Positions 18,354-40,945 of a stretch of 64,000 nucleotides of DNA are shown here, one piece after another. Source of the DNA: an uncultured Lachnospiraceae bacterium (GTDB lineage: Bacteria; Bacillota; Clostridia; Lachnospirales; Lachnospiraceae). Location of the stretch: NCBI GenBank assembly GCA_900315945.1, contig ONAZ01000013.1, positions 1 to 64,000 of the forward strand, read 5' to 3'. The stretch's first letter is position 1. Every line of letters starts with the position of its first letter. The position numbers and the translations under genes were made by a program. The notes under the pieces are model-generated. The model had not been told where the DNA came from and did not search any database. It was given only the letters and a program-made list of their open reading frames with translations.

Positions 18354-18392
18354 AAAAAGCGGTTTGGCGTTGATGAGCCAAGCCGTTTTTTT
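18354..18392 (+). terminator. Intrinsic terminator after the symporter
   Basis: CGGTTTGGC (18360-18368) pairs with GCCAAGCCG (18377-18385) with one G-T pair, then seven T residues. The 3' half plus downstream promoter (18375-18440) is repeated at 21978-22044. Confidence 0.9.
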
Positions 18393-18414
18393 GTGACCTT
18401 TTTTCATATTTTAC

Positions 18415-18439
18415 TTGACAATATATATATATATATAAT
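18415..18439 (+). promoter_or_regulatory. Promoter with (AT)8 spacer, secreted paralog 1
   Basis: TTGACA (18415-18420) is followed directly by eight AT units that run into the TATAAT at 18434-18439. The spacer is only 13 bases. The sister promoter at 22017 has nine AT units and a 15-base spacer. Gain or loss of an AT unit would move the spacer by 2 bases, a known basis of phase-variable promoters. Confidence 0.6.
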
Positions 18440-18483
18440 TAATTCATCGTTTATGAAATATATATATAAGGAGGAGAATGGTT

Positions 18484-18909
18484 ATGGAAAAAACGAAAAA
18501 TAATAAGGTTCTTGTAGCGTTATGTATGGTATCTATAGTGCTTTGTTGCGCATTTATTCCGGTAAAAAGTGTGGAAGCGTCAATGTCTGCGAGATTTATG
18601 GATTCACGAGAAATTGACAGGCAAATTAATGAGCACTATAATTCGATGAATACTTACCAGTCTGCAAGGGATTCAATTGATACGGCACAATGGACAGAAT
18701 CAAGTTGGTTTTCTTATTGCTTTAATAATATGATGTATTTATATGAAAAAGATGTTTGGGGGTGTTATGTGTTTACAAGACTTGCAATGATTAATAGTGG
18801 TTGTAATGTGGTGGCTTTGGAGTATACTGACGGATTTTGTTGTGTAGAACATTGGAAAGCAGTTGCATTTGATGGAAGTAGAGTTTATCAAACCATTTGT
18901 TCTAAGTAA
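18484..18909 (+). CDS. Small secreted protein, paralog 1 (unknown family)
   Basis: This 141-residue protein has a clear signal peptide: basic start, hydrophobic core around LVALCMVSIVLCCAF, and likely cleavage after VEA near residue 32. I do not recognise the mature part. The same-length protein at 22088 aligns over its whole length. Shared elements are the signal peptide, a Cys 15-16 residues before GCNVV, and a C-terminal AFDGSxxYQ. These invariant cysteines could form a disulfide. The ATG at 18484 was chosen because AAGGAGG is 8 bases away and it aligns with paralog 2; the ATG at 18478 is too close. The terminator behind it is split by an IS element. Confidence 0.75.
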   Translation: MEKTKNNKVLVALCMVSIVLCCAFIPVKSVEASMSARFMDSREIDRQINEHYNSMNTYQSARDSIDTAQWTESSWFSYCFNNMMYLYEKDVWGCYVFTRLAMINSGCNVVALEYTDGFCCVEHWKAVAFDGSRVYQTICSK

Positions 18910-21977: not shown

Positions 21978-22044
21978 GAGCCAAGCCGTTTTTTGTGACC
22001 TTTTTTCATATTTTACTTGACAATATATATATATATATATAATT
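21978..22044 (+). repeat. Direct repeat of terminator half plus promoter (second copy)
   Basis: Positions 21978-22044 repeat 18375-18440 almost base for base: GAGCCAAGCCG, a T run, GTGACCTTTTTTCATATTTTAC, TTGACA and an AT run. The differences are in the T run (six versus seven) and the AT run (nine versus eight units). TTGACA lies at 22017-22022 and TATAAT at 22038-22043, giving a 15-base spacer. This marks a tandem duplication of the promoter-gene unit before the IS insertions. Confidence 0.85.
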
Positions 22045-22087: not shown

Positions 22088-22513
22088 ATGAGAAAAACAA
22101 AAAGTAAAAGAATGGTTGTTGCATTATGTATGGCTACTGTAGCGTTTTGTTGTGTGTTTGTTCCTATGAAGAATGTAGAAGCAGCAGGAGGCTTGATGGA
22201 TAGGGGAACAGTTTTTCAAAAGGCGATGGAAGAATGGAATTCCTATAAAGCGGCGGAGAGTGCGTTGATGAGCATAAGTCAGGAGCCGGTTGATCCATAT
22301 AGGTCACCTGGAAATGGTCTACAGTATTTGGTGTTAAGATACCACAAAACACTATATTTTTGTTATTCTTCTATTTTTGAAAAAATGGGTAAATATGGAT
22401 GCAATGTTGTTGGCATAAACTATACTGGAAACTATTATGTTGGAGTTACATCTTTCGAAGCATATGCGTTTGATGGAAGTAAGCAGTATCAGGATTTAGC
22501 TAAATTACCATAA
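22088..22513 (+). CDS. Small secreted protein, paralog 2 (unknown family)
   Basis: This 141-residue protein has a signal peptide (VVALCMATVAFCCVF, likely cleaved after VEAA near residue 32). It has the same length as the product at 18484 and shares its promoter, signal peptide, the spaced cysteine pair ending in GCNVV, and the C-terminal AFDGSxxYQ. The central mature region diverges strongly, as seen in rapidly evolving surface or antagonistic proteins. AGGAGGG lies 8 bases before the ATG. No transporter, immunity or protease gene is adjacent, so a bacteriocin role has no positional support. A terminator follows at 22563. Confidence 0.75.
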   Translation: MRKTKSKRMVVALCMATVAFCCVFVPMKNVEAAGGLMDRGTVFQKAMEEWNSYKAAESALMSISQEPVDPYRSPGNGLQYLVLRYHKTLYFCYSSIFEKMGKYGCNVVGINYTGNYYVGVTSFEAYAFDGSKQYQDLAKLP

Positions 22514-22708: not shown

Positions 22709-22927
22709 ATGAAGAAAACATATAAGATTGAAGTAGATTGCGCTAACTGTGCTAATAAGATGGAAGAGGCAGCTAAGAACACTGAAGGCGTTAAGGATTG
22801 TGTAGTTAATTACATGACACTTAAGATGAAGGTGGAATTCGACGAAGGTGCTGATGTTGATTCAGTTATGCAAAGTGTTCTTGCTAACTGTAAGAAAGTA
22901 GAAGATGAGTGTGAGATTTACTTGTAA
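22709..22927 (+). CDS. Stand-alone heavy-metal-associated (HMA) domain protein
   Basis: The 72-residue protein is a single ferredoxin-like HMA domain with the metal-binding Cys-x2-Cys in DCANCANK at residues 11-14. A further Cys pair occurs near residues 61 and 68. Such proteins carry Cu(I) or Zn/Cd to P1B ATPases. The ATPase at 23397 lacks an N-terminal HMA domain, so this looks like its detached metal-binding unit. GAGAGG precedes the ATG. A 435-bp palindromic element separates it from the ATPase. Confidence 0.88.
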   Translation: MKKTYKIEVDCANCANKMEEAAKNTEGVKDCVVNYMTLKMKVEFDEGADVDSVMQSVLANCKKVEDECEIYL

Positions 22928-22928
22928 T

Positions 22929-23363
22929 CATATGTAGTGCTTTTATGAAGTGATTTAGATGTGGTGCTAAGTATTAGATATGCATTTACTCTAATTATTT
23001 AAGCTAAGATTATTACGATTTTTTGTTTCGTTATGCATTTATAACATTAGTTCGAACTTAGAAGATATAAGTAATTGATTAATCCAGTGGAAATCGTGCC
23101 AAGGACGGCACGATTAGGTGCGAACTGGCTGAGCCAGATTGAGCACCGGTCCACGTCATATGTCGTAAGGAAGCAACCCGCTTGCGGGAGGATTCCTTAC
23201 GATATAAAAACATAACACTTTACATCAATTACTTATATATTCTTAGTGAAGAACTACCGTTATAAATGTATGACGAAAATGAAAAATTTGTAATAATCTT
23301 AATATAAACTATAATAAATGCATATCTAATACTTAGCACCAACAAAGAATCGCACTACATATA
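22929..23363. repeat. Long palindromic repeat family, copy X1
   Basis: This 435-bp gene-free stretch has imperfect inverted arms of about 150 bases each. They begin ATGTAGTGC and end GCACTACAT and include GTGCTAAGTATTAGATATGC with its complement. The head holds CGTGCC/GGCACG (23095-23112), then GGTGC (23117-23121) pairing with GCACC (23143-23147) around a CTGGC/GCCAG hairpin. A third hairpin, TCGTAAGGAA/TTCCTTACGA, spans 23163-23203. The head and part of the right arm (CAATTACTTATATATTCTTAG) recur in copies X2 and X3. No protein-coding potential is seen. Confidence 0.8.
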
Positions 23364-23396: not shown

Positions 23397-25376
23397 ATGA
23401 ATAAGAAACAAAAGACTAATCTAATAAGAATAATAGTTACAGCTGTTCTATTAATTGGGATGTATATAGTAATAGAATCTGGAAAAGTATTACCAGAAGA
23501 CTATCTTAATCCTTGGATAGAAAGACTTATATTCTTAGTGCCTTATGCTATTATTGCTTACGATATTATAATGAAGTCGGTTAAGGGAATAGCTAAAGGT
23601 CAATTCTTAGATGAGAATTTCCTAATGGGAGTTGCATCATTAGGTGCATTTGCATTAGGTGAATGTCTAGAGGGTGTTGCAGTTGTATTATTCTATCAGA
23701 TTGGTGAATTATTCGAAAGCTATGCCATTGGAAAGAGTAGAAAGAATATATCTGAACTTATGGATATTACAGAAGATGTAGCATATCTTGTTGATGGTGA
23801 CGAAGTTATACAGGTTGATTCAGATGAAGTTGAGATTGGTTCTATAATTGAAGTAAAGCCTGGAGATAAGGTCCCTATCGATGGTGAGATTGTAGAAGGC
23901 GCTAGTGTACTTGATAGTGCTGCACTTACTGGTGAAAGTAAGCCGATAGATGTTGCAGTTGGCGATAGTGTCCTTAGTGGAACTATTAATATGTCTTCGG
24001 TAATCAGAATTAAGACTACTGCTGAGTTTGGGGATTCTACAGCTTCTAAGATTATGGATCTTGTTGAATCTGCAAGTTCTAATAAAGCTCATTCAGAGAA
24101 TTTTATATCAAAGTTTGCGAAGTACTATACTCCAATCGTATGTGCCCTAGCACTTGCACTTGCTATAATTCCACCACTTGTTAGTGGACTTATTCTAGGA
24201 GATGGATATACATTTTCAACATGGATATATCGCGCACTTACATTCCTTGTAATAAGTTGCCCATGTGCACTTGTAATATCAATTCCTCTTAGCTTCTTTG
24301 CTGGTATTGGTGGAGCAAGTTCTAAGGGTGTAATGATTAAGGGATCTAATTATCTAGAAGCATTAAGTAAGGTTGAGACGGTATTCTTTGATAAGACAGG
24401 TACCCTTACTAAAGGCAATTTCAAGGTAACTAGCACTTACTCTTGTATTGATGACGATAGTTCTAACAACGTGTCTGACGAAAATAAAGAATCAATTAAT
24501 CTCCTAAAATACGCTTCTTCAGCAGAGTATTATAGTAATCATCCAATTGGATTAAGTCTCGTAAATGCTTATGCAGCCTTGAAGAATACTGATGGTAATA
24601 AGGATATAATTGGGGACAAGGCAAAAGCATTTCTTATTAAGCCAGATAATGTTGAACAAATTAGTGGTCAGGGAATAATTGCAGATATTGAAGGAAAGAA
24701 GGTTGCTGTTGGAAATATGCTTCTTATGGAGTCAACCTGTAATAATGATAGAGATAGCATTAAGAAGGCAGAAGAGATAGGAACTATAGTATATGTAAGT
24801 ATTGATGGCGCATTTGCAGGCTATATTGTAATTAACGACGAGATTAAAGAAGAAAGTAAAGATGCAATTACAGCCCTTTACAATTGCGGTGTTAAAGATA
24901 CAGGAATTCTTACAGGTGACAATGAAGATGTGGCAAATGATATTGCAAGTAAAATTGGACTAACTAAAGTTAGAGCGAAGCTTCTTCCACAAGATAAGGT
25001 TAAAGCTGTTGAAGATGAAATTAATAGTGGTGCTAAAGTGGCATTTGTAGGGGATGGAATTAATGATGCACCGGTTATTATGCGAGCAGATGTGGGAATT
25101 GCCATGGGAGCCCTTGGTTCTGATGCAGCTATAGAGGCAAGTGATGTTGTACTTATGGATGATAATCCAACTAAGGTATCACTAGCCATTAGACTTGCCA
25201 AGAAATGTATGAAAGTAGTATATGAAAATATTTACTTCTCAATTGGAATTAAGATGCTTGTTCTTGTGCTTGGAGCATTGGGAATTGCAACCATGTGGAT
25301 GGCGATATTCGCAGACGTAGGAGTTATGATCCTAGCAGTCCTTAATGCAGTAAGATGCCTTAGAATTAAATCCTAA
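23397..25376 (+). CDS. P1B-type heavy-metal-translocating ATPase (Zn/Cd/Pb type)
   Basis: This 659-residue membrane pump has no N-terminal metal-binding domain. Hydrophobic pairs flank the actuator (TGES, near 180-183), and the transmembrane metal site SCPCAL lies near residue 287. Phosphorylation is at the Asp of DKTGTLT near residue 334, followed by the HP motif (NHPIG) and GDGINDAP. CPC together with an SmtB-like sensor nearby suggests efflux of zinc, cadmium or lead over copper. GAAAGGA precedes the ATG. Its stop codon forms the first bases of the palindrome at 25374. The ArsR gene follows on the same strand. Confidence 0.93.
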   Translation: MNKKQKTNLIRIIVTAVLLIGMYIVIESGKVLPEDYLNPWIERLIFLVPYAIIAYDIIMKSVKGIAKGQFLDENFLMGVASLGAFALGECLEGVAVVLFYQIGELFESYAIGKSRKNISELMDITEDVAYLVDGDEVIQVDSDEVEIGSIIEVKPGDKVPIDGEIVEGASVLDSAALTGESKPIDVAVGDSVLSGTINMSSVIRIKTTAEFGDSTASKIMDLVESASSNKAHSENFISKFAKYYTPIVCALALALAIIPPLVSGLILGDGYTFSTWIYRALTFLVISCPCALVISIPLSFFAGIGGASSKGVMIKGSNYLEALSKVETVFFDKTGTLTKGNFKVTSTYSCIDDDSSNNVSDENKESINLLKYASSAEYYSNHPIGLSLVNAYAALKNTDGNKDIIGDKAKAFLIKPDNVEQISGQGIIADIEGKKVAVGNMLLMESTCNNDRDSIKKAEEIGTIVYVSIDGAFAGYIVINDEIKEESKDAITALYNCGVKDTGILTGDNEDVANDIASKIGLTKVRAKLLPQDKVKAVEDEINSGAKVAFVGDGINDAPVIMRADVGIAMGALGSDAAIEASDVVLMDDNPTKVSLAIRLAKKCMKVVYENIYFSIGIKMLVLVLGALGIATMWMAIFADVGVMILAVLNAVRCLRIKS

Positions 25377-40342: not shown

Positions 40343-40606
40343 GTATATTAAAAGCGAGAACTGCTAGCATATAGTACATTCTCATACAGGTGCATTTTCG
40401 CTAAGTATATGTAAGCAATTGGAATTAGTTGCTATTATAATTATGACGAAAATCGGTGCTCAATCCGTCATCCAGACGGTTCGCACCTAAGCCCGACATC
40501 CATGTCGGGCTTTTTTCTCATGTATACCAATTGCCAACATATACTATAGCTCAATGCAAATAGTATGAGAACGCACTACATGCTAGAAGTTCTCTCTTTA
40601 ATATAC
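40343..40606. repeat. Long palindromic repeat family, copy X2 (head in minus orientation)
   Basis: The arms are about 90 bases. GTATATTAAAAGCGAGAACTGC, CTAGCATATAGTAC and TTCTCATAC on the left are matched imperfectly by their complements on the right. The head (40443-40516, read on the minus strand) has CCCGACA/TGTCGGG, then GGTGC/GCACC enclosing CCGTC/GACGG, then CACCGATTTTCGTCAT. It shares TTACATATACTT-GCGAA with X3 and the terminal GCACTACAT with X1. No gene is present in this stretch. Confidence 0.8.
40490..40516 (+). terminator. Terminator formed by the head of X2, serving the PFL gene
   Basis: AGCCCGACAT (40490-40499) and ATGTCGGGCT (40502-40511) form a 10-bp stem followed by six T residues on the + strand. 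This should end transcription from the ACT-PFL genes. Confidence 0.8.
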
Positions 40607-40654
40607 AGCTAACTACTTATAATTACAGAGCAGCTTGATAGTGAGGGCTTCGTA

Positions 40655-40945
40655 GCAGGCTGGTGGGAGTGATAAAGGAGTGGGGAGTGAATGATTGTGA
40701 GTCTTGTACAATTTGCGTCGAGCTGTAGTATATGTTAGTAACTGTATAATTAAGAAAAAATCCCGACATGGATGTCGGGATTAGGGGCGAACCGCCTGGA
40801 TGGCGGGTTGAGCACCGATTTTCGTCATATGGTCTATTAATATGATACTACAGTTACTTACATATACTTGGCGAAGATGCATCTGTACAAGGCTTGCAAA
40901 CATTCACTCCCCACCTTGTACTTATCTCACCAGCCTACGGCTGCA
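40655..40945. repeat. Long palindromic repeat family, copy X3 (head in plus orientation)
   Basis: Imperfect inverted arms include AGGCTGGTG, GTGGGGAGTGAATG, a CTTGTACA-like stretch and AGTATATGTTAGTAACTGTA with their complements on the right; weaker pairing may run from 40630 to 40970. The head (40755-40832) has CCCGACAT/ATGTCGGG, then GGGGC/GCACC (one mismatch) around CCGCC/GGCGG, then CACCGATTTTCGTCATATG. It is inverted relative to X2. Together they fill the 600-base gap and form the 3' region of the ABC-F gene. Confidence 0.8.

Follow-up and report, generated by a model that had tools for sequence, protein, structure and literature searches.

TwoAYGGAY palindromic repeats that appear inverted in place between sister species of Lachnospiraceae and carry a head predicted to bind CsrA

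Several kinds of regulatory RNA and of dispersed DNA repeat share features with the element described here. The CsrB, CsrC, and Rsm decoy RNAs display GGA in hairpin loops, and CsrB-type genes are few and dedicated in each genome. The TwoAYGGAY motif (Rfam RF01731), which follows a common stem plan with two hairpins, was listed in a 2010 table as a likely RNA that is not cis-regulatory (PMC2864571), and CsrA binding was suggested for it in 2014 from motif matches (PMC4333381); its stem has been extended by CaCoFold and Rfam 15, and the stability of its loops is the subject of a 2025 preprint. The portions of this literature drawn on here report no test of the motif's function and make no mention of inversion in place, of arms specific to each copy, or of a rule that close pairs are divergent. 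Wider literature searches likewise brought up no account of the inversion. Among DNA repeats, the ERIC, RUP, Correia, and MITE-like families are also small, multi-copy, and mostly intergenic, with transcripts that would form long stem-loops, according to the cited part of PMC2229807, and REP/BIMEs (PMC2817692) are likewise palindromic, extragenic, and often arranged in pairs of opposite orientation. Template switching between inverted-repeat arms, as the cited sections on yeast describe it, homogenizes the arms and inverts the spacer (PMC8604942).

The TwoAYGGAY elements studied here depart from each of these systems. Unlike the ERIC, RUP, and Correia repeats, they show no clear target duplication at the sites compared, their core ends are conserved, their arms are particular to each copy, and they appear inverted in place. 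Unlike REP/BIMEs, they have a core of about 170 bp with a two-hairpin head, and the close pairs that we scored are all divergent. They place GGA in loops as the CsrB, CsrC, and Rsm RNAs do, but no copy has more than two GGA loops, the copies number in the dozens, and the binding is a predicted one. Whereas the spacers in the cited yeast cases measure 3-5 bp (PMC8604942), the middles that seem to have turned here are far longer, one to a few hundred bp, and in comparison with published template-switch inversions (PMC8604942, PMC8794818) they belong to one element type at many sites.

The window, a stretch of 64,000 nucleotides from an uncultured Lachnospiraceae bacterium, contains three copies of the element (X1, X2, and X3). 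X1 lies between an HMA-domain gene (22709..22927, + strand, PF00403) and a P-type ATPase gene (23397..25376, + strand, PF00122 and PF00702). An earlier note, made from the sequence alone, had placed a long imperfect hairpin in this gap, and folding bears this out: the whole imperfect palindrome, arms and core together (22933..23363, + strand), an extent to which the comparison across relatives also speaks, forms, over nearly its full length, a single long hairpin of -184.4 kcal/mol, against a mean of -83.0 (sd 6.1) for shuffled sequences (z -16.6), none of the 100 shuffles being equally stable. Its core (23046..23257, + strand) matches model positions 1-168 of RF01731 with 42.9 bits (E 2e-5 in 901 nt). 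The two-hairpin head has the stems that the note described, and the X2 and X3 stems quoted there are likewise correct. Hairpin H1 (23092..23115, + strand), a candidate CsrA site, consists of AATCGTGCC, the loop AAGGAC, and GGCACGATT, with the GGA at 23103-23105. In hairpin H2 (23117..23147, + strand), the outer stem pairs GGTGC (23117-23121) with GCACC (23143-23147), and the inner stem CTGGC/TGA/GCCAG spans 23125-23137; the loop is thus TGA, and the second GGA is missing. An additional hairpin within the core, TCGTAAGGA...TCCTTACGA (23163..23202, + strand), was recognized from the sequence and is also present at the X1 site of the relative G004 and at the loci L129 (in G007) and L137 (in G006). 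A hairpin at roughly the same core position recurs in several copies from different species (X1, C22:18561 of the own genome G000, L129, L137, and L051); a pattern search for it gave no match among 250 loci, with a pattern so strict that it misses even X1, and is therefore uninformative.

The earlier note recognized no known class in this repeat and counted an Rfam match among the outcomes that would speak against it. Such a match exists: cmscan assigns X2 (40390..40560, - strand) and X3 (40712..40882, + strand), the left and right members of a divergent pair, to TwoAYGGAY with 75.4 and 68.4 bits, respectively, at a cut-off of 43. X1 matches across the whole model and falls 0.1 bit under that cut-off; with a model built from its own genome it scores 134 bits, X1 itself being part of the training set of that model. 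The two AYGGAY loops that give the family its name are not found in X1, which differs from a typical member in its single GGA loop (AAGGAC in H1), its TGA second loop, and its additional hairpin. The full-length match to the stem plan is nevertheless accompanied by a head that, through both hairpins, is letter-identical in two copies above the cut-off, C17:13783 (51.4 bits) and C25:66968 (57.7 bits). Because of this identity X1 belongs to the family despite its TGA loop, and we class it, by its sequence, as a divergent member by descent and not a typical one.

The genome holds 38 copies above the RF01731 cut-off and, with X1, at least 39; these occupy 34 sites when each of five close pairs is taken as one. 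A weak additional copy beside C14:14687 (L067 1876-2269, contig C14 of G000) reaches 62.1 bits with the own-genome model, so that 39 is a lower bound. Searches with that model, in this genus and others, yielded 160 matches, 150 of them aligned, from which the top 118 rows (at least 43.4 bits, 113 distinct) were kept; the rows below these are mostly opposite-strand readings of palindromes already listed. Close pairs among the 118 rows are divergent without exception (16/16 rows from 11 distinct loci, including the X2/X3 pair at 40390-40882), although a weak second copy at L166, which at 33.4 bits lies under the row cut, would give one tandem pair. Members of close pairs other than X2/X3 do not resemble recent duplicates of one another.

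The 39 copies are for the most part non-coding and intergenic, as in MITE- and ERIC-like families: 35 are clear of a crude ORF call and four overlap an ORF partly or wholly. By a simple ORF call, the surrounding gaps are tandem in 26 cases, convergent in seven, and divergent in six. An orientation tied to the neighbouring genes was considered and rejected, as the GGA strand runs with the genes in 14 of the 26 tandem gaps and against them in 12. Further copies occur in related genomes, as the note's proposal of a repeat family would lead one to expect. The element was found in 12 of 61 genomes (the own genome and relatives) and in 37 of 250 in a survey of the family with about one genome per genus, 35 of the 37 being above the cut-off; in other families of the order, represented by 24 genomes, it was not found. 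Copy counts in the 61- and 250-genome surveys are lower bounds, given the stricter filters and the ten candidates per genome that were scored in the larger set. A weak test for spread by phage, with a single exact head pattern, returned no match in viral_contigs.

The note had further proposed a base-paired head whose bases vary, and the alignment of 29 copies from the own genome agrees: two-sided changes occur in 39 of 45 pairs, none of 500 shuffles attains any of five covariation measures, and pairing falls from 94.9% to 32.5-48.1% when the partner is shifted by 1-3 columns, controls that likewise stay below the true alignment on every measure. The description of the linkers as nearly fixed holds among X1, X2, and X3; across the family it fails, since GGTGC/GCACC itself, helix 5 of our alignment, covaries, with double changes in 6/6 pairs. 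Over the 113 distinct rows, Watson-Crick pairing amounts to 92-98% depending on the helix, and G-U fills 74 and A-C 38 of 4992 pair cells, figures that describe TwoAYGGAY rows alone, without a control family. Core pairs from the own genome and G007 or G006, matched by best identity (at least 88%) and not by checked synteny, allow a closer comparison (n = 20). Here 868 pair cells are unchanged; single changes number 12 to or from G-U, four A-C, four other mismatches, and three from unpaired to unpaired, and double changes number six Watson-Crick and one other, whereas 102 of 1575 unpaired positions changed. Among close relatives, changes are thus slower to accumulate in the core stems than in the unpaired part of the core, which makes some constraint on the structure likely. 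To that extent the note's suggestion of selection on structure stands; the covariation on which it relied does not by itself prove selection at the level of RNA, because G-U pairs are so rare. Their rarity fits paired changes that arise together at the DNA level, which template switching is able to produce according to the cited part of PMC8794818. For palindromic repeats in general, covariation may originate in DNA, a warning for inference that is based on it.

The loops themselves are well conserved. Of 113 rows, 109 have GGA in the loop of H1 and 94 in that of H2, so that the ANGGA-in-loop arrangement of CsrA-binding RNAs is common in the family. The own genome has csrA, and a CsrA match was found in 12 of 12 carriers against 30 of 49 non-carriers among the 61 genomes and in 36 of 37 carriers against 89 of 213 others among the 250 (p 3e-11, with kinship ignored). 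The sole carrier lacking a match, G179, is a 1.6-Mb assembly, 93% complete, in which the one copy lies close to the end of a contig. Flagellin, taken as a control, is found in 37 of 37 carriers and 89 of 213 others; it tracks the element equally, and CsrA therefore cannot be separated from motility. With that reservation, the conserved GGA of the first loop and the co-occurrence with CsrA are new findings of this analysis. Judged from its conserved loops, the TwoAYGGAY head probably binds CsrA as an RNA. It could do so as an ordinary trans-acting small RNA of the CsrB kind that has multiplied, with flips and arms as incidental features, an idea that suits the fit of the loops to the CsrA motif, as published in the cited part of PMC4333381, and the presence of CsrA in nearly all carriers. 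Up to 38 copies in near-random orientation to genes are difficult to reconcile with such a family, and we hold this explanation to be improbable.

Nearly all copies have, outside the core, inverted-repeat arms of their own, with about 80% of the aligned positions matching, and many arms hold a perfect stretch of 20-33 bp. At X1, the left outer arm offers a 27-bp stretch (22962..22988, + strand) with exact complementarity to its partner in the right outer arm (23315..23341, + strand); decayed copies without clear arms are C24:103420, C14:14687, and C8:12273. That the outer arms are inverted repeats specific to each copy is a further new finding of this analysis. With these three copies left out, a search with 36 arms found no donor elsewhere in the genome at E < 0.01. 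Every arm retrieved itself and, in most cases, its partner; the search also returned the arms that X1 and C17:13783 share and one further match (C42:6750-6801, E 4e-5) just outside its own site; the next match elsewhere had E 0.0104. Copying of arms from a distant donor was rejected accordingly. A TATAC/GTATAAG-like motif, which might be part of a promoter or a binding site, recurs on both sides of the core, about 8-12 nt out, in many copies of the own genome.

Arm columns compared between G000 and G007 contain 92 single changes that break or make a pair and six compensated ones; for G006 the figures are 66 and five. The compensated doubles exceed a rough expectation of about one per comparison. 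Since most changes are single, arm repair is not frequent, and maintenance of the arms by compensatory selection alone was ruled out. An outward gradient in arm age found no support, the forced alignments being biased. At one copy, C44:49562, the arms involve coding sequence: the right arm coincides with the coding end of the neighbouring gene, which all four relatives possess, and the left arm repeats that coding end in inverted form, the palindrome extending 21-29 bp into the flank. A general inverted duplication of the flank was rejected because a clear extension is seen at this site alone, across the four relatives; smaller extensions at C31:13103 (15 bp), C16:15258 (14 and 5 bp), and C22:18561 (9 bp) are unconvincing. 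In 12 of the 20 comparisons made for flank duplication, the insert contained the core.

Comparison of the X1 gap across relatives argues against a role confined to the flanking genes. The element is absent in G002, G003, and G005, only an arm remnant is left in G001, and G004, G006, and G007 have the element in place but inverted. Cis-regulation of the HMA/P-type ATPase operon, for example by a riboswitch, would suit the position of X1 between both genes and its co-orientation with them in the own genome; with three empty and three inverted relatives, and with other copies occupying gaps of every orientation, we rejected this explanation as very remote. As X1 has the opposite orientation in G007, G006, and G004, the flip most likely occurred in the lineage of the own genome, insofar as the assemblies reflect it. 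In G001, the match to the P-type ATPase ortholog (L052) is interrupted by one TAA and adjoins the arm remnant.

Anchoring on the flanks allowed 30 of the 34 sites to be compared with G007, 23 with G006, and 32 with at least one of the two; because the G007 and G006 stretches came mainly from around copies listed there, absences are under-sampled. Against G007, 18 sites have the same orientation, three are cleanly flipped, and seven are absent or changed, and of two pairs one has a same and a changed member and one a flipped and a changed member. Against G006, the same, flipped, and absent or changed classes hold seven sites each, with one pair same and changed and one mixed, one member being the same and the other flipped. 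Empty sites include C44:49562 in four relatives, C44:37271 in G006, C25:117175 in G007 and G004, and C31:13103 and C22:18561 in G004. Other copies are partly deleted, for example C44:47480 and C22:18561 in G006 and C14:21449 in G007, where the hairpin lacks its core. The C16:15258 gap contains a TwoAYGGAY copy in G000 that differs from those in G007 (L129) and G006 (L137), and none in G004.

Clean flips were seen at nine of the 32 compared sites: X1, C42:6513, C8:10203, C22:108429, C8:7427, C23:6311, C17:13783, C31:13103, and the pair C23:156573, both members of which have turned. To judge from these assemblies, TwoAYGGAY elements are inverted in place between sister species, another new finding of this analysis. 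The relatives are mostly draft assemblies, and at several flipped sites the arms are perfect over 24-33 bp in one or more of the genomes, so that clean flips other than C22:108429 and C31:13103 may be products of misassembly. At these two sites neither assembly has a perfect arm repeat longer than 19 bp, in our judgement too short for the usual k-mer tangle. Breakpoints could be placed at X1 (in its outer arms), C8:7427, C8:10203, and C17:13783, where they fall within perfectly repeated arm sequence, about 19-33 bp long; those at C42:6513, C22:108429, and C23:6311 are less clear.

A site-specific invertase that acts on conserved core-end sequence, as in phase-variable promoters, could explain the large share of flips (7/23 sites against G006) and the conservation of the core ends, for example TTCNAGCTTAG and CTTAGCGAAGAA. 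The resolved breakpoints lie outside the core, however, in perfect stretches specific to each copy, and the four clearly placed sites among seven flipped comparisons viewed have no motif or recombination-site sequence in common; an invertase therefore seems to us quite unlikely. A selfish MITE- or ERIC-like repeat is a less unlikely account, although still a doubtful one. Here a transposase would recognize the hairpin head as DNA, flips would be re-insertions, and CsrA would not be involved. Such a repeat would be expected to have many copies, a patchy distribution (37/250 genomes of the family and 0/24 in other families of the order), element-free sites in relatives, copies such as X1 and C17:13783 that share head and arms, and few G-U pairs. 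It leaves unexplained why copy-specific arms are retained at several flipped sites and why the loop GGA is maintained while the stems vary, and no target-site duplication was clear at the sites compared.

We propose that the TwoAYGGAY repeat is inverted and remade by template switching between its arms and that its head is predicted to bind CsrA, a combined reading to which we give an even chance. It starts from direct observations, namely family membership, copy number, empty sites, inversion in place in the assemblies, copy-specific arms, the H1 GGA, and csrA. During replication, the nascent strand would jump from one arm to the other, which would turn the core around and restore the arms to perfect inverted repeats; now and then, neighbouring sequence would be copied inverted into the palindrome, C44:49562 being the one clear case. 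Transcribed copies would fold into the two-hairpin head and may hold CsrA through the ANGGA loops. The DNA half of this proposal draws on the comparison of relatives and the yeast precedent, and the RNA half on the loops and the co-occurrence with CsrA. Breakpoints that fall within perfectly matched arm sequence and have no motif in common are what template switching would be expected to leave, and the lack of an arm donor elsewhere in the genome, the excess of compensated doubles in the arms, and the scarcity of G-U pairs also favour it. Infrequent arm repair, middles far longer than the yeast spacers, and inverted copying of the flank that is clear at one site only speak against it. Against the CsrA part stand the equal tracking of the element by flagellin, the agreement of the GGA strand with genes in just 14 of 26 tandem gaps, and the loss of the second GGA loop in X1. 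The patchy distribution and the units that X1 and C17:13783 share imply that the element can reach new sites. A bolder extension, in which the copies are dispersed CsrA decoys that turn themselves, arm-driven flips putting GGA loops on or off a neighbouring transcript, strikes us as speculative and unlikely; if it were true, the supply of free CsrA would vary between lineages without a recombinase.

Template switching at these arms would also be an apparent natural case of inversion with middles far longer than those in the cited portion of the yeast work (PMC8604942). For the TwoAYGGAY motif itself, the analysis adds a genomic context, that of a many-copy and apparently invertible palindrome in motile, CsrA-bearing Lachnospiraceae. 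Elsewhere in the window, an identical 51-bp direct repeat (18387-18437 and 21989-22039) stands 5' of two similar small ORFs (18478-18909 and 22088-22513) whose starts resemble those of exported proteins, and IS3-like transposase ORFs lie between the two.
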